Source of the DNA: Desulfurobacterium sp.
GTDB taxonomy: Bacteria > Aquificota > Aquificia > Desulfurobacteriales > Desulfurobacteriaceae
Direction of reading: 5' to 3'
Length of the DNA: 11,909 bases
NCBI GenBank assembly: GCA_003978805.1
Contig: QNYI01000039.1
Location: 1-11,909, forward strand
In this document: piece after piece, positions 1 to 11,909 of the stretch
Numbering within the stretch: position 1 is the stretch's first letter
Layout of the letters: each line of letters opens with the position of its first letter
Translations under genes and position numbers: made by a program
The notes under the pieces: generated by a model
The model's input: only the letters and a program-made list of their open reading frames with translations
What the model was told of the DNA's origin: nothing
The model's database searches: none

Positions 1-66
1 CTCGTTGTAAAAAACGTAACCAAGTTTAAGGATTCAAAGGCTCAACCCATTATAGAGAGATTTTAA
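1..66 (+). CDS. possible 3' end of an upstream gene (partial)
   Basis: Frame 1 is open from the first base and ends at TAA (64-66). It reads LVVKNVTKFKDSKAQPIIER followed by F, which looks like an ordinary hydrophilic C-terminus and uses the same codons as the genes downstream. The other two forward frames close within the first 30 bases. Only 21 residues are visible, too few to name a product. It could be chance, since an open run of 22 codons is not rare. If real, it lies 76 bases upstream of mazG on the same strand. Confidence 0.4.
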   Translation, partial: LVVKNVTKFKDSKAQPIIERF

Positions 67-142
67 GTTTAATTTCCTGCTTCTCTTTAAATTCCTCTGT
101 TCCCTAAATTTAAAATACCTTTCTTAAACCGGAGGTTCTGAG
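67..142 (+). other. A+T-rich leader before mazG
   Basis: This is a pyrimidine-rich and A+T-rich intergenic stretch. I see no G+C-rich hairpin that would act as a terminator. A TAAAAT at 111-116 could serve as a -10, but no convincing -35 lies 16-18 bases upstream. The only firm signal is GGAGG at 131-135, seven bases before the GTG start of mazG. Confidence 0.4.
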
Positions 143-922
143 GTGAAGAGGTACTCTTTTGAGGATTTGGTAAAGATAATGGAAAAACTGAGGTCTCCCC
201 AAGGGTGTCCTTGGGATAGGAAGCAGACCCACGAGAGCCTCGTTCCCTACCTGATAGAGGAGACCTATGAAACCGTTGACGCCATAAGGAAGGGAAACCC
301 TGATAACCTGAAGGAAGAGCTCGGCGATTTACTCCTTCAGGTAGTCTTTCACTCCCAGATAGCAAAAGAGAGTGGCCACTTTGACATTTACGATGTTGTT
401 GATGCCATAGCCAAGAAGCTCGTCTTTCGCCATCCCCACGTCTTTGGGGATAGAAAGGACATAAAGACGTCGGAGGACGTCTTAAAGGAGTGGGACAAGT
501 TTAAGGAGAGGGAAGGGAAGAAGAAGGATTCCCTCCTTGACGGTATCCCCCAGTCCCTACCGGCTTGGGAGAGGGCTTATAAGCTCCAGAAGAGGGCAGT
601 AAAGGTAGGCTTTGACTGGGAAAACTTTGAAGGTATAAAGGAGAAGATGGAGGAGGAGATAGAGGAACTCTCAGAGGCTTTAAAGAAGGGGGATAGAGAG
701 AAGCTTGAGGAGGAAGCGGGAGACCTACTCTTTATGGCGATTAACTTGGTGAGGTTCTTAGGAGTAAACCCGGAGCTTGCCCTTTCTAAGGCCAACGAGA
801 AGTTTGAGAAGAGGTTCAGGTATATGGAGAGAAGGGCTAAGGAGATGGGAAAGAGGCTGGAGGATATGTCTATTGACGAGATGGAGCTCCTTTGGCAGGA
901 AGCAAAGGAAAAAATGCTATGA
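143..922 (+). CDS. mazG: nucleoside triphosphate pyrophosphohydrolase MazG
   Basis: This 259-residue protein has the length and two-domain layout of bacterial MazG, which hydrolyses (d)NTPs to NMP and pyrophosphate in the cytoplasm and is linked to nucleotide-pool cleaning and the stringent response. The first all-alpha domain has the metal-binding EExxE motif (E39, E40, E43) and the partner ExxxD (E58, D62). The linker carries the family signature VFRHPHVFGD (residues 94-103). The second domain repeats the motifs as EEIEE (171-175) and EEEAGD (189-194), so both sites look intact. The start is GTG at 143, chosen because GGAGG (131-135) lies seven bases upstream and residues MKRYSFEDLVKIMEKLRSP match the usual N-terminus. 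It is first in a run of same-strand genes, 33 bases before the stress protein gene. Confidence 0.95.
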   Translation: MKRYSFEDLVKIMEKLRSPQGCPWDRKQTHESLVPYLIEETYETVDAIRKGNPDNLKEELGDLLLQVVFHSQIAKESGHFDIYDVVDAIAKKLVFRHPHVFGDRKDIKTSEDVLKEWDKFKEREGKKKDSLLDGIPQSLPAWERAYKLQKRAVKVGFDWENFEGIKEKMEEEIEELSEALKKGDREKLEEEAGDLLFMAINLVRFLGVNPELALSKANEKFEKRFRYMERRAKEMGKRLEDMSIDEMELLWQEAKEKML

Positions 923-955
923 TTTCGCTGAGAAAGTTAAGGTAAGAGGTGCTTA

Positions 956-1429
956 ATGCCACTTTTTAAGAAAGTTCTCTACCCTACCGACTTCTCTGAG
1001 CTTGCAGAAACCGCAAAGAACTACGTTCTAAAGCTGAAAGAGGCCGGAGCCGAGGAAGTTATCGTACTTCACGTGATATCGCCTTTGGAGTTTAGCCTCC
1101 CTCAGTTTGACGACCCTTTTGCCCTTGACGTTGCTTCCCTTTACGCTCACCTGCCCGAGATTGAAAAGGAGGTTCTGAAACGTCACCAAGAGATGCTCGG
1201 GATACTCTCTGAGGAGTTTGAGGAGGCAGGCTTTAAAGTTAAGGAGCTCCTAACCGTCGGCACTCCTTCCGACGAGATAGTTAGGGTGGCCAAGGAGGAA
1301 GGCGTTAACGTTATAGTCATCGGTTACCACGGCAAAGGTCTCATAGAGAGAATACTTGAAATGGGAAGCACTGCAAAGGCCGTTATAAGGAAGGCCGAGT
1401 GTCCCGTTCTCGTCGTTAAAAGGGGGTAG
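956..1429 (+). CDS. universal stress protein, UspA family
   Basis: This 157-residue single-domain Usp protein has the alternating beta/alpha pattern of the Rossmann-like Usp fold. It opens with the family motif KVLYPTDFSELA (6-17), where D12 would contact adenine. It ends with the nucleotide loop GYHGKGLIERILEMGS (123-138) and the closing strand CPVLVVKRG. The usual ATP-binding loop is G-x2-G-x9-G-(S/T); here the second spacer is 10 residues, a variant that still may bind nucleotide. Usp proteins are cytoplasmic dimers that act in stress or energy limitation, often as nucleotide sensors, so the exact role cannot be read from sequence. The ATG at 956 follows AAGAGGTG (944-951). The stop lies three bases before mtnA, so the two are probably co-transcribed. 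Confidence 0.92.
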   Translation: MPLFKKVLYPTDFSELAETAKNYVLKLKEAGAEEVIVLHVISPLEFSLPQFDDPFALDVASLYAHLPEIEKEVLKRHQEMLGILSEEFEEAGFKVKELLTVGTPSDEIVRVAKEEGVNVIVIGYHGKGLIERILEMGSTAKAVIRKAECPVLVVKRG

Positions 1430-1432
1430 TGA

Positions 1433-2491
1433 ATGGGGAAGCTTAGGGACATACGCCCTTTAAAGTGGACTGGGGATTCACTGTTACTTCTTGACCAGAG
1501 GAAACTCCCTTTAAGGGAAGAGTGGATTGAGTGTAAGGACTATGAGTGTGTTGCAAAAGCGATAGAGGATATGGTGGTCAGGGGAGCTCCCGCAATAGGC
1601 GTCGTTGCCGCTTACGGGGTGGTTCTCGGGGCAAAGGGAGTAGCGAGGGAGACGAGGAACTTTTTGGACTTTAAGGCTAAGCTTGAGCTGATAATCAACA
1701 GGCTCGCTGCAACCCGTCCGACGGCGGTTAACCTCTTCTGGGCTTTAAAGAAGATGAAGAGGATAGTTGAGGCTGGAAGGAGCACCGATGACATAGTTGC
1801 GGCGCTTGAAACCGAGGCCGTTAACATTGAACAGCAGGACGTTGAAACGAACAAGAAAATAGGGCAGTACGGCGCGGAGCTCCTTTCCTCCCGGGAGGTC
1901 ATCCTTACCCACTGTAACACGGGGGCTCTTGCAACTGCCGGCTACGGGACAGCCCTCGGCGTAATCAGGGCTGCCTTTGAGGCGGGGAAGGAGATAACCG
2001 TTTACGTTGATGAGACCAGACCCTACCTTCAGGGAGCAAGGCTTACCGCTTGGGAGCTCCAGCAGGAGGGAATTCCTTACCACCTCATAACCGACAACAT
2101 GGCCGGCTGGCTTATGGCTTCCGGAGAGATTACCTGTGTGATAGTCGGGGCAGACAGGATAGCCTTAAACGGCGATACAGCCAACAAGATAGGGACTTAC
2201 ACCCTTTCGGTTCTTGCTAAGGAGCACGGTATTCCCTTCTACGTGGCAGCTCCCACATCTACCTTTGACCTCTCCATAGGAAGCGGTAAGGAGATTCCCA
2301 TAGAGGAGAGAGCTCCCGAAGAGGTTCTCTTCTGCCACTGCCGTGACTGCCGAATAGCTCCTTACGGCGCTAAGGTGAAAAACCCCGCCTTTGACGTTAC
2401 TCCCCACGAGAACATAACGGCAATAATTACCGAAAAGGGCGTTATAAACTCTCCCAATGAGGAAAAGATTCTTGAGTTCTTCAGGGAGTAG
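1433..2491 (+). CDS. mtnA: S-methyl-5-thioribose-1-phosphate isomerase MtnA
   Basis: This 352-residue protein catalyses aldose-to-ketose isomerisation of methylthioribose-1-phosphate to methylthioribulose-1-phosphate in the methionine salvage pathway. It belongs to the eIF2B-alpha-like isomerase family. The substrate loop [13 protein letters not shown] is at 50-62. The catalytic Cys is in [18 protein letters not shown] (C161) and the catalytic Asp in [19 protein letters not shown] (D241). The C-terminal [20 protein letters not shown] is also typical. One oddity is a Cys cluster CHCRDC at 301-306, where many homologues have a short Gly-containing turn before RIAP. The ATG at 1433 is preceded by a purine-rich AAAAGGGGG run. 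The 3' end overlaps the start of gspK by 35 bases. No other methionine-salvage gene is in the window. Confidence 0.96.
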
Positions 2492-3341
2492 AGGGGGATT
2501 TGTCCTCTTCCTCGTCCTCGTTATGGTTTCCGTTACCGCCTCTTTCCTCTTCTCCCTCTACTACCTCACAACTCGTAACTTTAAAAGGACAGAGGATTTC
2601 AGGGACTACACCGTTGCCTACCACGCTGCCGTTTCTGCCGTAAAGATTGCCCTTTACTTTTTAAGGAACGACAACAACGGCTTTGACGGCGTCGGGGATG
2701 AGTGGGCTTCTCCCTTCTACTACAACTACCGAGGAATCTCCGTTTCTGTTAGGGTTGAGGACGAGTGTGGGAAGCTAAACGTTAACAAGCTTGTGAATAA
2801 CCGCTGGCACGCCATAGCCGAGAGGCTCTTTGAGAATCTCGGCCTTAACCCCGACCTTGCCGATTCTATTAGGGACTGGGTTGATAGGGATGATGAGGTT
2901 TTTGAAAACGGTGCGGAGAGCTTCTACTACGGTGGGCTCGGTTATAGACCTTCCAACGCTCCTATGAAGAGTGTTTACGAGCTCCTTTACGTGAAAGGAA
3001 TAGGTGAAAAGGTTTTTAAGAAGCTCAAGAGATACCTTACCGTCTACGGCGACAAAGTTAACGTAAACTCCGCTCCCAAGGAGGTTCTCTTAGCCCTTTC
3101 CCCGAACATGAACGAGGATGCCGTTGATAGTATAATTGAGAACCGTCCCATAAAGAACTTGGGGAAACTTAAAGAACTTCCCGGCTTTGACGAGGAGCTC
3201 TACTTTGAGATAAGGCCTCTGATAACGGAAAAGTGCAACTACTTCCGCATAGAAGCTACAGCCTCTTACGGGGATACCACTGCTACCGTTGAGGCCTTCA
3301 CCGACAGACATAGAGTCCTTGAGTGGAAGGTGGTTCAATGA
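2457..3341 (+). CDS. gspK: type II secretion system minor pseudopilin GspK
   Basis: This 294-residue protein is the large minor pseudopilin at the tip of the T2SS pseudopilus. A short basic leader ends in SRGG (11-14), the prepilin peptidase site, followed by the hydrophobic helix [20 protein letters not shown]. The fifth mature residue is Leu rather than the Glu of other pseudopilins, as is characteristic of GspK. The body has family landmarks: [11 protein letters not shown] (99-109), a Ca-site-like acidic stretch [30 protein letters not shown], and a C-terminal [14 protein letters not shown] strand region. The ATG at 2457 overlaps mtnA by 35 bases and lacks a clear ribosome binding site. 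TTG at 2472 has GAGG eight bases upstream and is an alternative start five codons later. The stop overlaps the gspL start as ATGA. Confidence 0.9.
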
Positions 3342-4579
3342 TAGGCGTTGATGTAGGCTCTGAGCTGACTAAGTGGTTTGACGGCAGGCGGTTCGGAACG
3401 GGCTTCCCTGAAGGAAGAGGAATTGTAGCGGGGGTCTCCTCAAGGACAGTTTTCGTTAAAAAGTCCTTTTACCCTTTGTGCAGGGGAAACCAGCTTAGGA
3501 AATTAATCGTTAACGACGTCTCCTCCGATATTGGAATCCTGCCGGAGGAGATATCGGTTGCTTTCTGTCCCGTTAAAAAGGAGAAGGAAGGGTGTGAGTT
3601 CCTCCTCTTTGTAGAGAAGAAGGAAGCCTTGAAACCTCTGGAGGAATCCTTTAAAGACCTTTCGGTCATTACGGCAGACCTTGTAGGGGTGGCTATAGCT
3701 ACAAAGCTGGTTTTCGGGGAGGAGGATTTAACCGTTATTGACGCCGGAGCTTCAAAGACGGCCATTTTGGAGCTCTCTGCCGGTAAGTTGACCTCCGTTG
3801 AAATTGTTAGGGCTGGCTTTGGAGCCCTCAAGAGTTCACCCTCCCTCCTCAAAGAGAGGGTAACCTCCGCCGTAGAGTCTAAAAGGGTTGTTCTCGTTGG
3901 CGGCGGAGCCCTTGACGAAGAGTTTGTAGAGCTCCTAAGGGAGCATATAACCTTAGAGGTTCCGCAGGAAAAGCCTTTCGGTAGAGAGACTCCCCTCTAC
4001 TTTGGAGCTTTTGGGCTCTTCCACTTTAGGAAATCTCCCTGCAGGGCGTCTTTTAAAGAGCTCTCCCTCTTCAGTTCCGAGTTCTTCACGAAAAATAAGG
4101 GTAAACTGGTTGCCTCCGCCATTATGCTCTTTGGAGGTCTCGCGTTTCTTACCGTTTCTGAGTACCTTTCCTACCTTCAGGCAAAGAGGGACTACTTAGA
4201 GTTTAAGAGGGAGTATAAGAAGGCTATAGAGAAAGTACTCGGCGAAAGGGTCGTTGCTCCGGAGGAACAGCTTTCACAGGCTCTATCCCGGCTTAAGAGG
4301 TTAAGGGAGTTCCTTTTGCTGGATAGACCTTCTGTCCTTTACTACCTTGCAGGTATCTCTAAGGCTATAGGTAGTGGTGTTAAGGTTTTAAAGCTTGAAG
4401 GTAGTTCTACTGCAGGTAGCTTTAAGATTACGGGAGTAGCGGAAAACTCTAAGGCCTTAAAGGAGTTTACGGATAACCTTAAGAGAAACTTTAGTAAGGT
4501 TAACACAGACGTTAGCAAAGAAACAGAGAGGGGCGTTAAGTTTACGATTACGGTATTCGGAGTAAGGAGCGGTGGTTGA
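3338..4579 (+). CDS. gspL: type II secretion system protein GspL (PilM-like actin fold plus membrane segment)
   Basis: This 413-residue bitopic inner-membrane protein has three parts. An actin/PilM-like cytoplasmic domain begins [14 protein letters not shown], with further nucleotide-fold motifs DAGASKTAI (135-143) and VGGGA (187-191). One transmembrane helix is at about 257-277 (LVASAIMLFGGLAFLTVSEYL). A coiled region and a small periplasmic alpha/beta domain end FTITVFGVRSGG. In the T2SS, GspL recruits the ATPase GspE and pairs with GspM. I chose ATG 3338, which overlaps the gspK stop as ATGA and follows AAGGTGG, over the GTG five codons upstream that lacks a ribosome binding site. The end overlaps gspM by 8 bases. 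The retained DxG motifs are closer to PilM than to classical GspL, so a PilM-type name is possible, but the GspK and GspM neighbours favour GspL. Confidence 0.85.
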   Translation: MIGVDVGSELTKWFDGRRFGTGFPEGRGIVAGVSSRTVFVKKSFYPLCRGNQLRKLIVNDVSSDIGILPEEISVAFCPVKKEKEGCEFLLFVEKKEALKPLEESFKDLSVITADLVGVAIATKLVFGEEDLTVIDAGASKTAILELSAGKLTSVEIVRAGFGALKSSPSLLKERVTSAVESKRVVLVGGGALDEEFVELLREHITLEVPQEKPFGRETPLYFGAFGLFHFRKSPCRASFKELSLFSSEFFTKNKGKLVASAIMLFGGLAFLTVSEYLSYLQAKRDYLEFKREYKKAIEKVLGERVVAPEEQLSQALSRLKRLREFLLLDRPSVLYYLAGISKAIGSGVKVLKLEGSSTAGSFKITGVAENSKALKEFTDNLKRNFSKVNTDVSKETERGVKFTITVFGVRSGG

Positions 4580-5129
4580 GAGAGTGAAAGAGGCCTTCTT
4601 GGACTACCTTGCAGGACTCAGCGAGAGGGACAGGTTAGTAATCCTACTTGGGATTCCCGTTGCCCTCCTCCTTGCCTTCGTGACTTTTGTCCTCTCTCCC
4701 GTTGCCTCCCTTGAAAAGGAGTACCTGAAAAAGTCCCAAAAGCTAAGGGAGAGGGTAGAGGGAATCCGTCCGAAGGTGACAGAGCTCCTCTCCCTTAAAC
4801 GGGAAGTTGAGCCTACCTTACGGCGGGTGAGAAGGGGGAAAGGTCTTGACGTGGCAGACTACGTAAAGAGGAGGGCCCAGAGTTACTCCCTTGAGCTTAA
4901 GAACGTTAAGGTATCGGTGGGAAGGCTTGAGGAGGGGATGGAGGTTAAGACCGTAACCGTCAGTTTCTCAGAGGTTTCCCTAAATAACCTTTCCCGGTTT
5001 ATAAAGAGCTTAGAGGGTTCTCCCTACTACTTTAAGTCAACTTCCCTTGAAATCTCCGATATGGACGAAAATGGCCTCGTTTCGGGGAAGGTTACGTTCA
5101 ACTTCTTTGCAGGGAGCGAGGAAGGGTGA
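4572..5129 (+). CDS. gspM: type II secretion system protein GspM
   Basis: This 185-residue protein has the GspM layout: a short cytoplasmic N-terminus ending in the characteristic LSERDRLVILLG, one transmembrane helix at about 22-43, a charged coiled-coil stretch (about 48-85), and a small periplasmic ferredoxin-like domain. It would form the inner-membrane platform of the T2SS with GspL. Sequence conservation in this family is low, so the call rests on topology, size and position between gspL and gspN. The start is uncertain: GTG 4572 lies only two bases after AAGGAG (4564-4569), while GTG 4584, four codons later, lies 14 bases after it. The stop overlaps the next start as TGATG. Confidence 0.82.
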   Translation: MVERVKEAFLDYLAGLSERDRLVILLGIPVALLLAFVTFVLSPVASLEKEYLKKSQKLRERVEGIRPKVTELLSLKREVEPTLRRVRRGKGLDVADYVKRRAQSYSLELKNVKVSVGRLEEGMEVKTVTVSFSEVSLNNLSRFIKSLEGSPYYFKSTSLEISDMDENGLVSGKVTFNFFAGSEEG

Positions 5130-5890
5130 TGAAGAACTTCCGCTATTTTCTAATATTCCTCCTTTCATTTCCCCTCTTCCTTTACCTCTCGTTTCCCTTG
5201 GAAAGGGTGGTTGAGAGGGAGCTCTGCAAGAGGGAAATCGGCTACACAGAGGTAGAAGTTGAAAAGTTCCCTCCCAAGTTAAGAGTCAAGGGCTTGGAGC
5301 TCCCCCAACTGCCTTTTTCTATTGAAGAGGCGGTGGTTTTGCCAGATTTGGAGAGTATCCTCTCAGGTGACAGGCGCTTAAACGTTTCCTTAAAGGTTTG
5401 CGGAGGGGAGGGGGAGGTAAAACTTAATTACCCCTTGTCGGAGTTAACCTTTCACCTTAAATCCCTCCGCTTGTCAAGGTGCGTGAAAGAACTTCCCTTT
5501 AAAGTTAGGGGGCTTTTCTCTGCTGCTGGAGAGGTTAGCCTGAGAGTTCAAAAGGCGCTTCTTGAGAAGGGAAGGGGAAGCTTTTCTGTTGAGAGGTTAG
5601 AGCTTGGGGAGCTCTCCTTTGGTCTCTTCTCACTGCCGGGGTTAAACCTCGGAAAACTAAAGGGAACTTTCGTTGTAAAGAGGGAAAACGTTGTAAGCCT
5701 TGAAGCAGAAGGAAAGGGTAAAGATGCGGATGTAAAAGTAAGGGGCTATATTAACGTTAACCTTAGGTATCCCGGGAAGTCTTACGTAAATTTAAGGGTG
5801 AAGGTTAAACCGAAGGTAGCCCTTTTAAAGGGTAGAACGTTTACCTTCAGGGTTAAAGGTTTTGCCGAGAACGTGACTGTAGTCAGGTAA
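5129..5890 (+). CDS. gspN: GspN-like type II secretion accessory protein
   Basis: This 253-residue protein has an N-terminal membrane anchor (about 5-21, FRYFLIFLLSFPLFLYL). A long beta-rich periplasmic region follows, with repeated short strands and patterns such as GEVKLNYPLSEL, GLFSAAGEVSLRV and LPGLNLGKLKGTF. This matches the GspN form found in T2SS clusters of deltaproteobacterial type, related to AsmA-like lipid/envelope domains. Its exact role is unclear; it is dispensable in several T2SS. ATG 5129 overlaps the gspM stop (TGATG) and has AGGAAGG just upstream; a GTG one codon earlier is an alternative. Naming rests on gene order and fold pattern more than strong motifs. One base separates it from ruvA. 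Confidence 0.7.
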   Translation: MKNFRYFLIFLLSFPLFLYLSFPLERVVERELCKREIGYTEVEVEKFPPKLRVKGLELPQLPFSIEEAVVLPDLESILSGDRRLNVSLKVCGGEGEVKLNYPLSELTFHLKSLRLSRCVKELPFKVRGLFSAAGEVSLRVQKALLEKGRGSFSVERLELGELSFGLFSLPGLNLGKLKGTFVVKRENVVSLEAEGKGKDADVKVRGYINVNLRYPGKSYVNLRVKVKPKVALLKGRTFTFRVKGFAENVTVVR

Positions 5891-5891
5891 G

Positions 5892-6452
5892 ATGGTAGAC
5901 CTCTTAAGGGGAAGGGTTATCTACAAGTACCCCGACGGCATTTCCCTCCTCTGTGGCTGTGTAGCCTTTAAGGTTTTTGTTCCTGTGAGGCTTCTTACAG
6001 AGGTGAAAGAGGGGGATACGTTAGAACTCTTTACGAAGCTGATACTTCCGCCGGAAGGAACGCCGACCCTCTACGGCTTTAGAAGCCGTGAGGAGCGCTC
6101 CCTCTTTGAGACCCTTTTAAAGATTCCCAAAGTAGGCGCAAGGGTCGCTATGAGTATCATTTCCCACTTTTCAAGGGAAGAGCTTGAGGCGATAGTTTCG
6201 GCTGGGGACGTAAAGACCCTTTCTTCCGTCCCCGGCCTCGGGAAGAAGCTCTCCGAGAGAGTAGTGCTTGAACTTAGAGGAAAGCTGGAAGGTAAGGCTT
6301 CCCTGCCGGATGAACTTGTGGAAGTTCTCGTATCCTTAGGTTACACGAAAAAGGAGATAACGTCTAAGCTTAGAGAACTTGACGTTAAAGGCCTTTCCCT
6401 TGAGGAGGCCGTAAAGCAGGCAGTTCAGAAGCTTTCGGGGAGAGGGACTTGA
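5892..6452 (+). CDS. ruvA: Holliday junction branch migration protein RuvA
   Basis: This 186-residue protein is the junction-binding subunit of the RuvAB motor, which drives branch migration in recombinational repair. Domain I is an OB fold (1-63) that starts MVDLLRGRVIYK and ends with the typical LYGF (60-63). Domain II has two helix-hairpin-helix motifs, KIPKVGARVAMSI (77-89) and SVPGLGKKLSERV (112-124), for backbone contacts. Domain III (about 139-186, EVLVSLGYTKKEI onwards) would contact RuvB. The length is slightly short of the usual 190-205, mainly through a compact linker. ATG 5892 lies one base after the gspN stop, so it probably depends on coupled translation. The stop overlaps ruvB as TTGA. 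ruvC is not in the window. Confidence 0.96.
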   Translation: MVDLLRGRVIYKYPDGISLLCGCVAFKVFVPVRLLTEVKEGDTLELFTKLILPPEGTPTLYGFRSREERSLFETLLKIPKVGARVAMSIISHFSREELEAIVSAGDVKTLSSVPGLGKKLSERVVLELRGKLEGKASLPDELVEVLVSLGYTKKEITSKLRELDVKGLSLEEAVKQAVQKLSGRGT

Positions 6453-7399
6453 TAGGAAGGCCGGAAAGCCTTGACCAGTTCATAGGTCAGGAGAAGGTAA
6501 AGAAGCTCCTAAAGGTAGCGGTTGAGTCGGCGAAGAAGAGGGGAGAACCCCTTGACCACATCCTCTTTTACGGACCTCCCGGAACGGGAAAGACGACCCT
6601 CTCTATGATAGTGGCGAAGGAGCTCGGTAAGGATATAAAAATCGTTTCTGCCCCGACCATTGAAAGGAAGGGAGACCTCGTAGCCCTCATTACGTCTTTA
6701 AAGGAGGGGGATGTCCTCTTCATAGATGAAATTCACAGGCTCAGTAAGAGCGTGGAGGAAAGTATCTACTCAGCAATGGAGGACTTTAGGATAGACGTTG
6801 TCACAGGTTCGGGGAAGAAGAGAGCTCTCTCTATAGAGCTCCCGCCGTTTACCCTAATAGGCGCAACTACGAGGTTGAACCTTTTAGCTCCTCCCTTTCG
6901 TTCCCGGTTTGGAATCATCTGCAGGCTGGAGCTCTACACGGTTCCTGAGCTAAAAGAGATAGCTAAGAGGAACGCCGAAAAGCTCGGAATCGTTCTGGAG
7001 GACGGAGCTCTCACCCTTTTAGCCCGGTGCAGTAGGGGAACGCCGAGGGTACTCAACCAGCTCTTAAAGCGCTTTAGGGACTTTGCCACTGTTCACTCTT
7101 GGGAGAAAATTGACGAGAAAAGAGCAAAGAAGGTTCTTGAAGAGCTCGGTATTGACTCCTACGGTCTTGACCGGATGGACAGGAAAATATTAAAGACTAT
7201 AGCTGAAGTATTTAAGGGAGGTCCCGTAGGCCTTAATACGTTGGCGATGGTTTTAAAGGAGGACGTTGAAACCATAGAGAACGTTCACGAGCCCTACCTC
7301 ATTGAGATGGGCTTTATAGTAAAGACGCCGAGGGGAAGGAAAATAACCCCTGAGGGACTTAAGGTAATCGGTTACACCTTTTTGCCGACTTTGCTTTAA
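6449..7399 (+). CDS. ruvB: Holliday junction branch migration ATPase RuvB
   Basis: This 316-residue AAA+ hexameric motor pulls DNA through the RuvA-bound junction. The order is: N-terminal SLDQFIGQEKVKKLL, Walker A GPPGTGKTT (42-50), Walker B and Asp-Glu box VLFIDEIHRL (89-98), sensor 1 LIGATTR (136-142), the arginine-finger segment PPFRSRFG (148-155), sensor 2 GTPRVLNQLLKRF, and a C-terminal winged helix ending in RGRKITPEGLKVIGY. It starts at TTG 6449. This is the only possible start, because the frame closes at TGA 6401-6403 and has no other ATG, GTG or TTG between. It therefore lacks the first 15-20 residues common in other RuvB proteins. It overlaps ruvA by 4 bases (TTGA), and a GGGGAGAGGG run upstream can serve as the ribosome binding site. 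Confidence 0.97.
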   Translation: MIGRPESLDQFIGQEKVKKLLKVAVESAKKRGEPLDHILFYGPPGTGKTTLSMIVAKELGKDIKIVSAPTIERKGDLVALITSLKEGDVLFIDEIHRLSKSVEESIYSAMEDFRIDVVTGSGKKRALSIELPPFTLIGATTRLNLLAPPFRSRFGIICRLELYTVPELKEIAKRNAEKLGIVLEDGALTLLARCSRGTPRVLNQLLKRFRDFATVHSWEKIDEKRAKKVLEELGIDSYGLDRMDRKILKTIAEVFKGGPVGLNTLAMVLKEDVETIENVHEPYLIEMGFIVKTPRGRKITPEGLKVIGYTFLPTLL

Positions 7400-7413
7400 T
7401 AAAAGATTATTAA
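7396..7413 (+). repeat. A+T-only inverted repeat at the ruvB stop
   Basis: TTAATAA and TTATTAA form a perfect 7-bp inverted repeat around AAGA, overlapping the ruvB stop codon. A stem made only of A-T pairs with no following T tract is unlikely to be an efficient terminator. It could be a protein-binding site or chance. Confidence 0.3.
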
Positions 7414-7415
7414 TG

Positions 7416-7444
7416 TTGAACGATTATGGATGTTCTGTTAAAAT
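7416..7444 (+). promoter_or_regulatory. sigma-70-type promoter for the cytochrome gene
   Basis: The -35 is TTGAAC (7416-7421) and the -10 is TAAAAT (7439-7444), separated by exactly 17 bases. TG at 7436-7437 plus one base makes an extended -10. Transcription would start near 7451, giving a leader of about 40 bases before the ATG at 7492. This is the only strong promoter I see in the window. It marks the break between the ruvAB unit and the cytochrome unit. Confidence 0.65.
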
Positions 7445-7481
7445 TTAGGAGACCGAAAATGTAAAAAAATTGTAAACATTT

Positions 7482-7486
7482 GGAGG
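7482..7486 (+). promoter_or_regulatory. ribosome binding site that fixes the cytochrome start
   Basis: GGAGG lies five bases before ATG 7492. An in-frame TTG at 7480 sits on the upstream side of this site and has no binding site of its own, so the TTG is rejected. The frame closes upstream at TAA 7462-7464. Confidence 0.85.
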
Positions 7487-7491
7487 ACGAC

Positions 7492-10400
7492 ATGAGGGCA
7501 CGGTGGCGGAAGAGCAAGCTGACGCTCACAACTTCCTTCATACTCAGTGCTGTTCTCGCCTCACAGGGTTATGCTGACCACGAGGCCATAAAACTCCTTG
7601 ACACCGAAGGTAACAGCGTTCTCAGCGGACTTTCCTCCTCAGAGACCGTAGAGGTCAAGGACAAGGACGGTAACGTTCAACGCCTCAAGAAGGGTAATCC
7701 GGTTAGCTGGGAAAAGACCTGTGGGCAGTGTCACGAGGAGATAGTAGAAGACGTCCGCATGTCCCACCACGGAGCTGTTGGAATACACGATATGGGATGG
7801 ATGGATAACGAGGAGACCCACGGCGACGATACCGGAACGAAGGACTTTGTGACCAACCAAGTTCTAAAGATGCGTTACTTCCGCACAAAGTCCCACTACG
7901 GAGGTTGGTGACCACCTTCCTACCGCCAGTTGGCGGCAAAAAGTCCTCTTACCGACCCTGCAGTTCCCGATGGAACTGTAGACGGTGTTAACCCTGCAGA
8001 TGCCAATGCTTACAAGGGTTTCAACTTTGATATGGGAACTATGAACCACAATATAACCTGTAACTCCTGTCACGCAGGAGGAGGAGCTGCAGAGTTTGGA
8101 AGGGAGAGCGAGCCTTTAGACCAAGTCCTTAAGGAAAAACTCGGCGATGAGGATTTTGATGCCTTAGCAGAGAATAAAGAGTGGTTCATCCATGACGATT
8201 CCCTCATTTCAAAGGTAGGAATTGACGGGGATTTCCTCGGTTACTCAGATTACGAGGTTGGAGCCGGTTACCTCGGAAAGCCGGGACTCTTTAACTACAA
8301 GCGTTCCGGTGTTAACGATACAGACTGCTTTATGTGCCACGCAGACGCTTCTCAAAGGGATAAGACGGTTCACACCCAGCTCGGCGTTGCAGACGTCTAC
8401 CCGATAATGCCTGCTAATCCCCGCGTAATGGTATTTAAAGGAGAGACTGCCGACGGAGAGACGATTGTAATTTCCCTCGGCGTTCCTCCCAAAGTGGGTG
8501 AAGTAATCAACGGGAAAACGGTTGCTAAGGTTGATTCTGCCTACTACAACTCCGTTCCCATAGACGTTCTTAAGAGCGTTTATATGGTTGATGACTCGTT
8601 TATAGATGAGCTTAAAAACGGCACGGATGCCAAACCCTTCATCCTCTACCCTAACAACGCAAACGGTGCTACAAGGGAAGTCGCAAGGGTCGTCTACTTT
8701 GAACACCCGGAAACCACAAAAGACAAGGACGGCGGAGAAGTTTACGTAAACGGTGGCGCAGCCACTTTTAAGGACGATAACGGCAACGTTGTTTATAGAA
8801 CCTTCGCAGGTTTCTTCTTTAAGTACATATCCACCGCTTCCCTTATGGGAGTTGATACCGACCAAGACGGAATTCCCCTTGCCTACGTAAGGTTCGTTAA
8901 GGACGGAGACATCTGGAAGCCCGAAGTCTACTACGATGCCGATGAGTTTAACTCCAACGGAGAAGTTAACCTTCCAATTCTCATGAATAGGGAAGGCGAG
9001 AACTACACCTACTCGGTTCTTAAAGAGCCGGGAACCACTCCTAAGATGACTTCAGGGACAAAGAATAGGGAGTGGGGATACGTTTGTTCCTACTGTCATA
9101 TGGCCATCGTTTACCCGAGCTCTCAGGTTGACCTTGATGGCGACGATACCAAGGAAACTACCTTCTACACTTGGGTTACGAGGAAGGGAACTCTCGGCCT
9201 TGCTGCTGAGATAGTTAAGAGGGGAGACGTCTTCTCCTACGATATCCATCGTGGCGGTGAGGATAAAGGTAACCTCAGCGCCGATGCCCTAAAAGACTAC
9301 GACCTGACGGATGATGCTCAGAAGCAGGAAGCTTTCGTCAGGATGCAGAAGGCTAAGTCCGTCATTTCCTTTGACGATGTTCCTATCGGCTACGACGTTC
9401 ACTTTGACAGCGAAAAAGGAAATATGACCTGTCTCTCCTGTCACGGAGAGGGGTCTTTAACGGAAGAAGAGAAGGAGCTCCACCCTGTCCACCACGACTT
9501 CCTCAAAGGTAACGACTGGGGAGGCCACTGGGATCAGTCCCTTGACTACAACCCATCCTTAAAGACCTGTATAGACTGTCACTTTGACGGATCTAAGGAG
9601 CTCGCCGCAGAAGTTCACCAAGGTATTGCTTTTGGAACAGGTGGCAATGCCCTTAACCACATCCAGAAGGTTGCCTGTGAAGTTTGCCACATTCCCTACA
9701 GAACCCACTGGACCTTCAGAGCCTTCTACGACGTTCTCGGCTACTCCTACAACTTTGACAACAGGATGCTCTCTTACGGTCCCGGGAATAACGAGGTGCA
9801 AAAACTGCCGGTTGGAATGTTCTCCCCCGGATTTGGTCCCTTCATGCCGATTGCAGGGTACGGAGCTCCACAACCCTTCCCAATTGCTAAGACGGTTAAC
9901 GGCAAAGATGTTGTAGTTCCCATCTACAAGGTGGATTTTGACCCAAGACAGGCAGCTTTAAGGCTTGACAGGGATGAGTTCGGTATCTGGAAAGTTCCCA
10001 GCGATACGTTCCCTTGGGGATGGGCTACTGTTATCATTAACAACGGCTTTAGGCCGGATAAACCCGGAGACCAGAACTTTATGTACAGGATTGCAGATCC
10101 CCTTACCCTCGTTACGTGGTACGACAAGACCACCGGAAAGGTTCTCTACGTGAGGGAGATTAACGCTGCCCTTACAGGAGAGGTGAAGTCAGATGCCGCT
10201 TCAAGTGGTATCCTCCCTGCAGGTCAGACCGAAAAGAAAGTTCCTTCCTACTACTACGTGGACGGGAAGGTCTGCGTTAAGACGATACTGGGAGACCTGA
10301 TCTGCGACGACAACGGCGACCTTATGCCTGAGATTGATACAGACACCGAGTACGATGCTATGAAGAGGGCTATTACAGAAGTCCTTAAGGCCGAAGGAGT

Positions 10401-11622
10401 TAAGAATCCTGATCCCGTCTTCTACATCTGGACTGCACCCTTTAGCATTGACCACGGCGTTCTTCCGAAAGAATACGCCCTCGGAGCCGGTGCGACGATT
10501 AACGGAGAAAAGCTTGACTGTAACGCCTGCCACGACGCTAAGAACGGAAGGCTCCCGCAGGCCAACATGGCCGATATAAACGCAAGTGAAGAGCTCTCAG
10601 CCCTCATTAAGAAGAATCCCGATGGAACCGTTAAGTACTTTGGTCTCGGTAGAGAGATCGTCACCGTTCCGGTTAAGATTCCTCCTAAGGCTTACAAGGA
10701 GGCCGTTAAGGTCTTCTTCAACTCTCCCGAGAATGAGGACGGGTCTCCTGAGTACGGAACTATGAGCTGGGGTGGAAATACCTACGAGGTTATGGTCAGG
10801 ACTGCAGGGGATATTCTTGTTAACGCCTTAGGAAACGGGGTTGATATTGATAGACACCTTGTCCCGATACCGGTTGAGAGCACCGGTATTGAGGGAATCG
10901 CCTTTGCCGTTCCGGCTACAGCTCCAGAGGAATGGAAGAACAAGAAGTGGAAGATGAAGTTTGAAGGAGTTCCCGTAGAGGTTGAGACAGAGGTTCTTCC
11001 AGAAGGAGAGATGCCGAGGAGGGCAATCGTTGTAAGGCTTAAGAATGAACTACCGGAGCTCCTCGGACTTGAGCACCTTGCCGACGAGATAATTGATGCA
11101 GGTGAAAGGGAAGGCGTTGAACCGGTATTTACGCCGGTAATTCTCTCCCACTACATAGAAAAGCTTGAGTTTAAGCTCTCTGACCTCGGCGTAACGAGCG
11201 TTGACGACCTCTACCTCAACTACGCCGAGATAGTGAAGGAGAGACACTCAGAGAAGGAAGAAAACGGAGAGTACAAAGTCGGCTATGAAGTTAAAGAAGG
11301 AACCTTTAACCCTGAGTCTATAACGATGAGAGAAGCCATTAATAGAGGATGGGCATCCTACGATGCCTACTCTAAGACCTTAACACTGAACGTTGCTGCG
11401 ATAAGGACAGACTCAAGGGCTTCTGAAGGGGGAGAGCTTGCCCTCGCTATCCTCAAGAACGTAAGGCCTGCTTCTGAAGAGGTCGCGGAAGCTCCTACCG
11501 GCGGTGGAGGCGGAGGCTGTTCAGTAACTCCCGCTTCTCCGGCTTCTGGAGCTCTCAACCTCGGCGTTCTCCTATCCGGTCTCCTCGGACTGTTCGGCTT
11601 CAGAAGAAAGAAGAAGCAGTAA
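7492..11622 (+). CDS. octaheme c-type cytochrome, predicted selenoprotein (ExtKL-like), read through UGA at 7909-7911
   Basis: A 1376-residue exported cytochrome if UGA at codon 140 is read as selenocysteine. The signal peptide spans 1-28 (basic start, hydrophobic core, GYA cleavage site before DHE). Eight CxxCH heme motifs start at C77, C190, C279, C532, C647, C693, C729 and C1010. The first lies before the UGA and the other seven after it in the same frame. The second motif is followed by GGGAAEFGRE and the third preceded by SGVNDTD, patterns I associate with large metal-reducing-type multiheme cytochromes. Long heme-free stretches lie at 284-531, 734-1009 and after 1014. Acidic Ca-site-like loops occur (DTDQDG, 455-460). 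The tail is six Gly plus C1343, a hydrophobic helix and RRKKK, like a C-terminal sorting signal. The part after the UGA has no ribosome binding site or signal peptide, so it could not make a cytochrome alone. The name is from memory of the ExtKL family; an internal stop or sequencing error is the alternative. Confidence 0.85.
7909..7911 (+). other. in-frame UGA, predicted selenocysteine codon (Sec140)
   Basis: The codon lies in SHYGGW-UGA-PPSYRQLA, with protein-like sequence on both sides in one frame. Other genes here (mazG, gspK, gspL, gspM, ruvA) end in TGA, so UGA is a normal stop in this genome and local recoding is needed. A SECIS-like hairpin follows directly. Confidence 0.78.
7912..7936 (+). 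promoter_or_regulatory. candidate bacterial SECIS element
   Basis: CCGCC (7923-7927) pairs perfectly with GGCGG (7932-7936) around the loop AGUU (7928-7931). Sixteen bases separate the UGA from the loop, and a G occupies the second loop position. Known bacterial SECIS elements, such as that of E. coli fdhF, are stem-loops inside the coding region just after the UGA, with G in the first two loop bases and a similar distance; SelB binds them to deliver Sec-tRNA. The lower stem is poorly paired here. The element also encodes YRQLA, so protein constraint could contribute to the sequence. Confidence 0.7.
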
Positions 11623-11645
11623 AATGTTTCTTAACGTTTCCTTGA

Positions 11646-11671
11646 CCCTCGGCTCCACAAGGAGCCGAGGG
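11646..11671 (+). terminator. strong hairpin after the cytochrome gene, probable terminator or attenuator
   Basis: CCCTCGGCTCC (11646-11656) and GGAGCCGAGGG (11661-11671) form a perfect 11-bp stem around ACAA, 23 bases after the cytochrome stop. The T run (TTTTT, 11679-11683) begins seven bases after the stem rather than directly, so termination may be partial. The next gene starts at 11696 with no room for a promoter between, so some read-through is expected unless a promoter lies inside the cytochrome gene. Confidence 0.7.
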
Positions 11672-11695
11672 ATTTCACTTTTTAAGGAGGGTAGA

Positions 11696-11909
11696 ATGAA
11701 ACGTTTTTTACCGATGTTCCTTCTTACAGTGCTTATTTCTGCTTCCTGCGGTGGTAACGTTCAGAATTCGGAAGTTAAAAAGGAAAAAGTTTGCACAGAG
11801 GAGACTCTCCTTGCCTCCGGTAAGGGAATAAAGGTTACCGTGGGAGATTACAGGTATGTTGAGAGGTTGCTGAAACCCGATGCAAAGAAGTTCTTCTCGG
11901 AACACCCGG
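11696..11909 (+). CDS. probable lipoprotein, possibly a parvulin-type peptidyl-prolyl isomerase (partial, 3' end cut by window)
   Basis: The first 71 residues are visible. MKRFLPMFLLTVLISASCGG is a lipoprotein-type signal peptide with the modified Cys at C18. The lipobox is imperfect (Ser-Ala-Ser before Cys, not Leu at -3). A Lys/Glu-rich linker follows, then GIKVTVGDYRYVERLLKPDA and KKFFSEHP. This pattern resembles the start of the SurA/PrsA-like chaperone helix domain that precedes a parvulin domain, where a 'VTVGD' strand leads into helices. The diagnostic parvulin domain would lie past the window, so the function is a guess. AAGGAGGG (11684-11691) is a strong ribosome binding site just before the ATG. 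Its place after a multiheme cytochrome would suit a role in folding or export of envelope proteins. Confidence 0.75.
   Translation, partial: MKRFLPMFLLTVLISASCGGNVQNSEVKKEKVCTEETLLASGKGIKVTVGDYRYVERLLKPDAKKFFSEHP

Follow-up and report, generated by a model that had tools for sequence, protein, structure and literature searches.

Selenocysteine (Sec) in multiheme cytochromes is already known from proposed or annotated cases. ExtKL of Geobacter (gsu2937-2936) is a five-heme cytochrome of 49.5 kDa, belonging to the extHIJKLMNOPQS cluster, that is listed as two genes and has been proposed to contain Sec (PMC5877670), and ExtKL also appears in a table of Sec proteins (PMC13188914). That table further lists WP_331457571.1, a GenBank-annotated Sec protein, under TIGR04315, the model of octaheme tetrathionate reductase (OTR) (PMC13188914). 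Here we describe a predicted octaheme selenocytochrome of Desulfurobacterium sp., a deep-sea vent bacterium of the Desulfurobacteriaceae in the phylum Aquificota. The window, i.e., the whole stretch of DNA that was analysed, comprises 11,909 nucleotides (GenBank assembly GCA_003978805.1, contig QNYI01000039.1, positions 1 to 11,909 of the forward strand) and belongs to an incomplete metagenome bin (62%-complete, 958,870 bases). The gene at 7492..11622 has a UGA at codon 140, and we put the probability that this UGA is decoded as Sec within one octaheme cytochrome gene at roughly 94%.

Like ExtKL, the window protein is a multiheme cytochrome split into two listed genes and proposed to carry Sec. 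It differs from ExtKL in having eight hemes rather than five, a sorting tail and other neighbors. An earlier note on this DNA, made by a model from the letters alone, had named ExtKL-type multiheme cytochromes as described (seleno)proteins, and here a correction is needed: the ExtKL model NF040886 (curated cut-off, 250 bits) gave no match to the window protein at E up to 1 and none in its own genome, and it was over the cut-off in 0 of 136 Aquificota genomes. The window family is under the cut-offs of both NF040886 and TIGR04315 and, as far as literature searches tell, is a new predicted selenoprotein family of multiheme cytochromes. Among open-licence PMC papers, 'selenocytochrome' and like phrases gave no match, no selenoprotein work naming Desulfurobacteri- was found, and there was no joint treatment of selenoproteome, Aquificae and cytochrome c. 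One paper that combines selenocysteine, multiheme cytochromes and UGA is on another subject, and four, PMC2628731 and PMC11273360 among them, mention selenoproteins together with octaheme cytochromes. A 2026 review (PMC13188914) nowhere has the stem 'aquific' in its main text.

The in-frame UGA and its conservation

The gene keeps the same frame throughout, with 139 codons (7492-7908) before the TGA, 1236 codons (7912-11619) after it and a stop codon at 11620-11622. The start codon, the Shine-Dalgarno sequence and the signal peptide are all confined to the part before the TGA, which has one CxxCH motif, and the other seven CxxCH motifs follow the TGA. The features in and around the first part are as follows.

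7482..7486, + strand: Shine-Dalgarno sequence GGAGG, 5 nt upstream of the ATG
7492..11622, + strand: predicted selenocytochrome gene, 1376 codons with a single in-frame TGA and eight CxxCH motifs
7492..7575, + strand: signal peptide, residues 1-28, judged by eye; relatives begin alike, charged and then hydrophobic
7720..7734, + strand: heme 1 motif CGQCH, residues 77-81, the sole CxxCH 5' of the UGA
7909..7911, + strand: TGA, codon 140, predicted selenocysteine, in frame; UGA plus hairpin core occur at 36 places in 17 genomes
7912..7920, + strand: codons 141-143, Pro-Pro-Ser; residues constant and codons varied in 24 group I/II genes (groups defined below)
7923..7936, + strand: bSECIS-type hairpin CCGCC-AGTT-GGCGG, loop at 7928-7931, 16 nt past the UGA

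The frame, the codon counts and the division of the eight CxxCH motifs are just as the earlier note had described them, and it was also right that the part after the UGA lacks a ribosome binding site and an export signal. The listed start of that part, TTG 7930, has no GGAGG-like site just upstream. Its account of the signals before the UGA was confirmed for GGAGG, the ATG and the signal peptide (the N-terminus, MRARWRKSKLTLTTSFILSAVLASQGYA followed by D, is signal-peptide-like by eye), and every relative whose start was compared has a GGAG- or GAGG-type site ahead of the ATG. The promoter is the weak point of that account, being a single 9/12 match at 7416-7444 where shuffles expect 0.5.

The earlier note had proposed aligning homologues at the UGA column, and the UGA proved to be kept in relatives. 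In those on named genome contigs, TGA is at the identical codon in 9 of 9, in the context SHYGGW*PPSYRQL (the asterisk marks the TGA). A search of the 136 Aquificota genomes for TGA-N9-TACCGCCAGTTGGCG gave 36 matches in 17 genomes, every one in the octaheme cytochrome family, and the backwards control of this motif gave 0 matches in the same 136 genomes. By location, the matches fall in 14 group I genes, which are orthologues of the window gene, 13 group II genes, which form a second paralogue with 35-38% identity to the window protein, and nine group III genes; each N-terminal match in groups I and II has one TGA. The group III loci (our loci L062, L064, L065, L069, L070, L100-L102 and L105) surfaced through weak OTR matches and encode 800-925 residues where complete, with TGA in all of them in the context GKL*(A/P)PAYRQLAP. 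One further group, group IV, consists of six loci without the TGA (L095-L099 and L103); the Sec column is Ser in these, encoded by TCA in four loci and by TCT and AGT in one locus each. The group IV copy L098, in genome G117, is broken by an in-frame stop other than TGA. Cys at the Sec column, which is usual but not defining support for a selenoprotein, was found in none of the family members seen; they have UGA or Ser only.

These sequences support the view that the Desulfurobacteriaceae have a family of large octaheme cytochromes, with three predicted Sec groups and one Ser group. The tree has the topology ((I,II),(III,IV)) with support of 100/100 and 99/98; it includes three group IV rows, and the tool warned of long branches. 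Because the signal is shared among the Sec groups, the simplest history is a single gain of Sec and a single loss in group IV.

Could the UGA have arisen through faulty sequencing or a recent nonsense mutation? The window does come from an incomplete metagenome bin and has an assembly fork at its end (see below), but the same UGA in all nine of the named relatives and at all 36 places in 17 genomes refutes this explanation, to which we give practically no weight.

The internal UGA has left its mark on the databases. Since it is recorded as a stop, the database records lack the N-terminal part: coverage of the query does not exceed 89% for any of the 28 matching proteins, among them the window's own, and the three that were inspected start 3' of the UGA with the first residues MAAK. 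The mis-annotation foreseen in the earlier note is thus what the records contain.

Hairpin, codon constraint and the selenocysteine machinery

The rules for a bacterial SECIS element (bSECIS) given in the Figure 2 legend of PMC13188914 are a loop of 3-9 nt that has a G at one of its first two positions and a stem of 4-16 bp, and the same source gives a distance of 16-37 nt from the UGA and an energy of -7.5 kcal/mol or lower (PMC13188914). The window hairpin CCGCC-AGUU-GGCGG satisfies these rules, with a 4-nt loop that has G second and U third, a 5-bp stem, a spacing of 16 nt and an energy of -9.4 kcal/mol. In the window gene the bases around the UGA (7900-7920) are also predicted to fold into a hairpin of their own, whose loop is the UGA.

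The codons tell more than the fold does about how this region is constrained. The 24 group I/II genes have 219 columns with one degenerate amino acid, and only seven of these keep a single codon; five of the seven are the hairpin codons 144-148 (TAC CGC CAG TTG GCG), for which a plain hypergeometric count, made as if the genes were unrelated, gives a probability of 5e-9. Group III has 139 columns of this sort and eight that are frozen, the same five hairpin codons among them. The single spelling of the hairpin codons indicates that the RNA is constrained. Immediately upstream, the Pro-Pro-Ser of codons 141-143 is present in 24 of 24 group I/II genes with silent changes only, which indicates that selection acts there on the protein and thus that the ribosome passes the UGA.

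This silent variation also bears on the possibility that the locus encodes two proteins, a short monoheme peptide ending at the UGA and the product of a second gene with TTG 7930 as its own start. The inspected database entries do start at that very TTG, and 0 of 28 cover the N-terminal part. Codons 141-143, though, lie between the UGA and the TTG and are translated, as their silent changes show, and the frame is preserved across the UGA in the listed loci of the groups. Moreover, the second part has neither a Shine-Dalgarno sequence nor a signal peptide, and its seven c-type heme sites would therefore remain in the cytoplasm. We regard two separate proteins as very improbable.

Several results on the hairpin weigh against its being a Sec signal. 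The fold has a modest z-score of -2.04 (9 of 200 shuffles folded equally well), and a longer piece around the hairpin gave a z-score of -1.54, with 15 of 200 shuffles as good. An Rfam scan of the window returned no SECIS. In group III the hairpin lacks the outer pair and has 4 bp, three of the nine sequences do not reach -7.5 kcal/mol when a stretch of 39 nt is folded, and L062 and L064 adopt another fold.

The earlier note had called for a search of the genome for the genes of Sec synthesis and insertion, and the outcome supports decoding as Sec. The genome has selB (436 bits; cut-off, 242), tRNA-Sec with the anticodon TCA (84 bits; gathering threshold, 47) and selD (372 bits), and selA is represented by a C-terminal fragment at a contig end (profile positions 350-453; 81 bits, below the cut-off). 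Across the family genomes, selA is present in 22 of 22 (21 over the cut-off) and tRNA-Sec likewise in 22 of 22 (20 over the cut-off). Of the 14 control genomes, two were over the cut-off for selB, one for selA, two for selD and five for tRNA-Sec. The selD gene has an in-frame TGA of its own in SG*GAK, which is followed by a hairpin with a GGUC loop 17 nt downstream. SelD is a different protein from the window protein and serves as an internal SECIS example, alike in having an in-frame UGA and then a hairpin. A Sec tRNA is reported in the T. ammonificans genome paper, in which a search for Theam_1684 gave no match.

Another possibility is that the UGA is read as some other amino acid, either through UGA=Trp or through plain readthrough, as translation beyond the UGA leaves the inserted residue unspecified. 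Each group I/II frame has a single in-frame TGA, the Sec system is present, and a SECIS-type hairpin with frozen codons lies 3' of the UGA, all of which argue against it, and we hold this reading to be highly unlikely. It is also conceivable that the UGA and the hairpin act mainly as a selenium-dependent switch, with termination and a short product in the absence of selenium, and that the residue itself is of minor use. Group IV, which lacks Sec and has Ser at the column, is in favor of such a switch. In the genes seen, however, all three paralogous groups keep the UGA and none has a sense codon in its place, and a switch of this kind appears improbable to us, if somewhat less so than the other alternatives.

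Decoding as Sec is the explanation that we prefer. The locus would be a single gene for an exported octaheme c-type cytochrome, and SelB together with Sec-tRNA would decode UGA140 as directed by the hairpin just downstream within the coding region. The central prediction of the earlier note, a selenocytochrome, is strongly supported by the Sec machinery, the conserved UGA and the SECIS-type hairpin after it.

Probable distant kinship with OTR and the place of the predicted selenocysteine

Seven of the heme sites and a conserved lysine lie in the part after the UGA.

8059..8073, + strand: heme 2 motif CNSCH, residues 190-194
8326..8340, + strand: heme 3 motif CFMCH, residues 279-283
9085..9099, + strand: heme 4 motif CSYCH, residues 532-536
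9217..9219, + strand: Lys576 in VKRGD, at the lysine conserved in the OTR family (K235 in the D. atlanticum locus L059; K153 of 1sp3, counted along the chain)
9430..9444, + strand: heme 5 motif CLSCH, residues 647-651
9568..9582, + strand: heme 6 motif CIDCH, residues 693-697
9676..9690, + strand: heme 7 motif CEVCH, residues 729-733
10519..10533, + strand: heme 8 motif CNACH, residues 1010-1014, preceded by HGVLPKEYAL

The window protein is over the cut-off of two Pfam models, Cytochrome_C7 (33.1 bits; cut-off, 24.8) and Mtrc-MtrF_II-IV (31.1 bits; cut-off, 30). Both are general heme-protein models and both match at hemes 5-7. No NCBIfam model was over its cut-off for the window protein. OTR (TIGR04315, 1sp3) resembles it in having eight CxxCH motifs in the same order, a VK(R/H)-type lysine between hemes 4 and 5 and an HGV-P block ahead of heme 8. 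It differs in size, as the window protein has 1376 residues with large inserts and a sorting tail, and the 1sp3 chain has 443. Weak TIGR04315 matches were obtained for 24 of 24 members of the family alignment A3. A closer OTR relative is Desulfurobacterium atlanticum P0031 (L059), which scores 198 bits against the cut-off of 375 and aligns with 1sp3. An OTR-like gene in genome G125 (L060) has an in-frame TAA and is possibly broken.

Comparison of the family profile with 39 OTR-type proteins gave a probability of 98.2% at hemes 5-7, and the cut-out heme 8 block with HGV-P gave 96.7% with the OTR-type profile. A joint MAFFT alignment with OTR placed the eight hemes in order; all 41 rows have CxxCH at each of hemes 1-7 and 38 of the 41 also at heme 8, where the other three are cut-off sequences. 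Lys576 fell on the OTR lysine in 6 of 6 runs in which Sec was masked, groups III and IV being gapped there except for one Ser, and alignment A5 has a lysine at the Lys576 column in 36 of 36 rows (the four groups and OTR). We take Lys153 of OTR (1sp3) to be the ligand of the catalytic heme, and Cys64 of OTR is presumably an active-site residue. The heme order, the shared segments and the lysine support a distant relationship of the window family to OTR.

Sec140 lies between hemes 1 and 2 in the sequence. In the joint alignment its column meets the cysteine of the OTR NxxC motif when Sec is written as Cys. Sec may take the place of the OTR cysteine, an equivalence that other alignments do not reproduce, and some results count against the OTR kinship itself. 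The window protein scored 31.1 bits with TIGR04315 (cut-off, 375), the match lying at hemes 5-7. When the N-terminal piece was cut out and compared with OTR, the probability was no higher than 72.9% (hemes 1-3 on hemes 1-3), and whole-length hhalign with OTR failed to hold heme 1 on heme 1. With Sec140 masked as X or S, it aligned with the OTR cysteine in 0 of 6 alignments, and neither hhalign nor alignment A5 placed it on Cys64; the masked runs did not bring Sec onto the NxxC Cys, which is invariant in the 39 OTR-type proteins. Both structure models were poor around Sec, too poor to place it, and a search of the PDB with the group III structure model found no relative. Sec140 may act near heme 1 as a redox residue or ligand, as the earlier note had proposed.

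Possible surface export, genomic neighborhood and possible function

The gene ends in a sequence that resembles a sorting signal and is followed by the start of another gene.

11500..11619, + strand: C-terminal tail, GGGGGGC, a hydrophobic stretch and RRKKKQ; sorting-signal-like
11696..11909, + strand: 5' part of the next gene, a lipoprotein; PPIC rotamase domain in homologues

MYXO-CTERM tails have a Cys signature, a transmembrane helix and basic residues, and are linked to surface localisation via type II secretion (PMC11980579). The tail of the window protein is like those of MYXO-CTERM proteins (TIGR03901) in having a Cys, a hydrophobic stretch and basic residues in the same architecture, and differs in scoring below the cut-off (17 bits; cut-off, 20). 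A similar tail is present in 23 of 24 group I/II rows (the 24th is cut short) as well as in the complete group III and IV sequences. Upstream in the window, type II secretion genes occupy 2457-5890 in the order GspK (176 bits; cut-off, 130), an unassigned gene at the usual place of GspL, GspM (31.5; 27.8) and GspN (68.5; 50); they are followed by ruvA and ruvB and then by the selenocytochrome gene. Together with these type II secretion genes, the tail suggests that the window protein is exported to the cell surface and anchored there.

On the downstream side, the last 121 bases of the window (11789-11909) recur exactly in contig C21 of its own bin (L016, 304-424), which has a complete foldase gene with the UGA-containing selD behind it. 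Upstream of the shared 121 bases C21 and the window differ, a pattern suggestive of an assembly fork from two strains or two copies. In Phorcysia, the selD frame comes after the lipoprotein/foldase gene. Phorcysia thus has the gene order selenocytochrome, foldase, selD, which, given the fork, is likely for the window as well. Near a group II gene in genome G123, a multiheme gene cluster includes a gene (L094, 4972-8046) for a 1025-residue protein with 28 CxxCH motifs.

What might such a protein do? Once exported, loaded with heme and anchored at the cell surface, the cytochrome would pass electrons along its hemes to the lysine-ligated catalytic heme, and Sec in the lysine-heme pocket, as a nucleophile or ligand, may attack or bind the substrate. 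Members of the Desulfurobacteriaceae have a sulfur-reducing habit. Given this habit and the relation to OTR, the most likely substrate would be a sulfur compound (S0, polysulfide, thiosulfate or tetrathionate), a proposal that we rate at well below even odds; nitrite, hydroxylamine or another acceptor may be used instead. On the fullest interpretation, the Desulfurobacteriaceae have surface octaheme selenocytochromes, as many as three paralogues in a genome, whose Sec replaces the catalytic cysteine of OTR beside the Lys-ligated heme for the extracellular respiratory reduction of sulfur compounds. We offer this as a speculative picture that is more probably wrong in some part than right in all.

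If decoding as Sec is correct, a selenoprotein family in the phylum Aquificota is added to the few listed Sec cytochromes, and the truncated database records, from which the signal peptide, heme 1 and Sec are missing, would be corrected. The frozen SECIS codons in groups I and II, found again in the more distant group III, represent a clean case of RNA constraint inside a coding region. With Sec in three paralogous groups and Ser in the fourth, the family provides natural variants that offer a way to ask what role Sec plays beside a heme.

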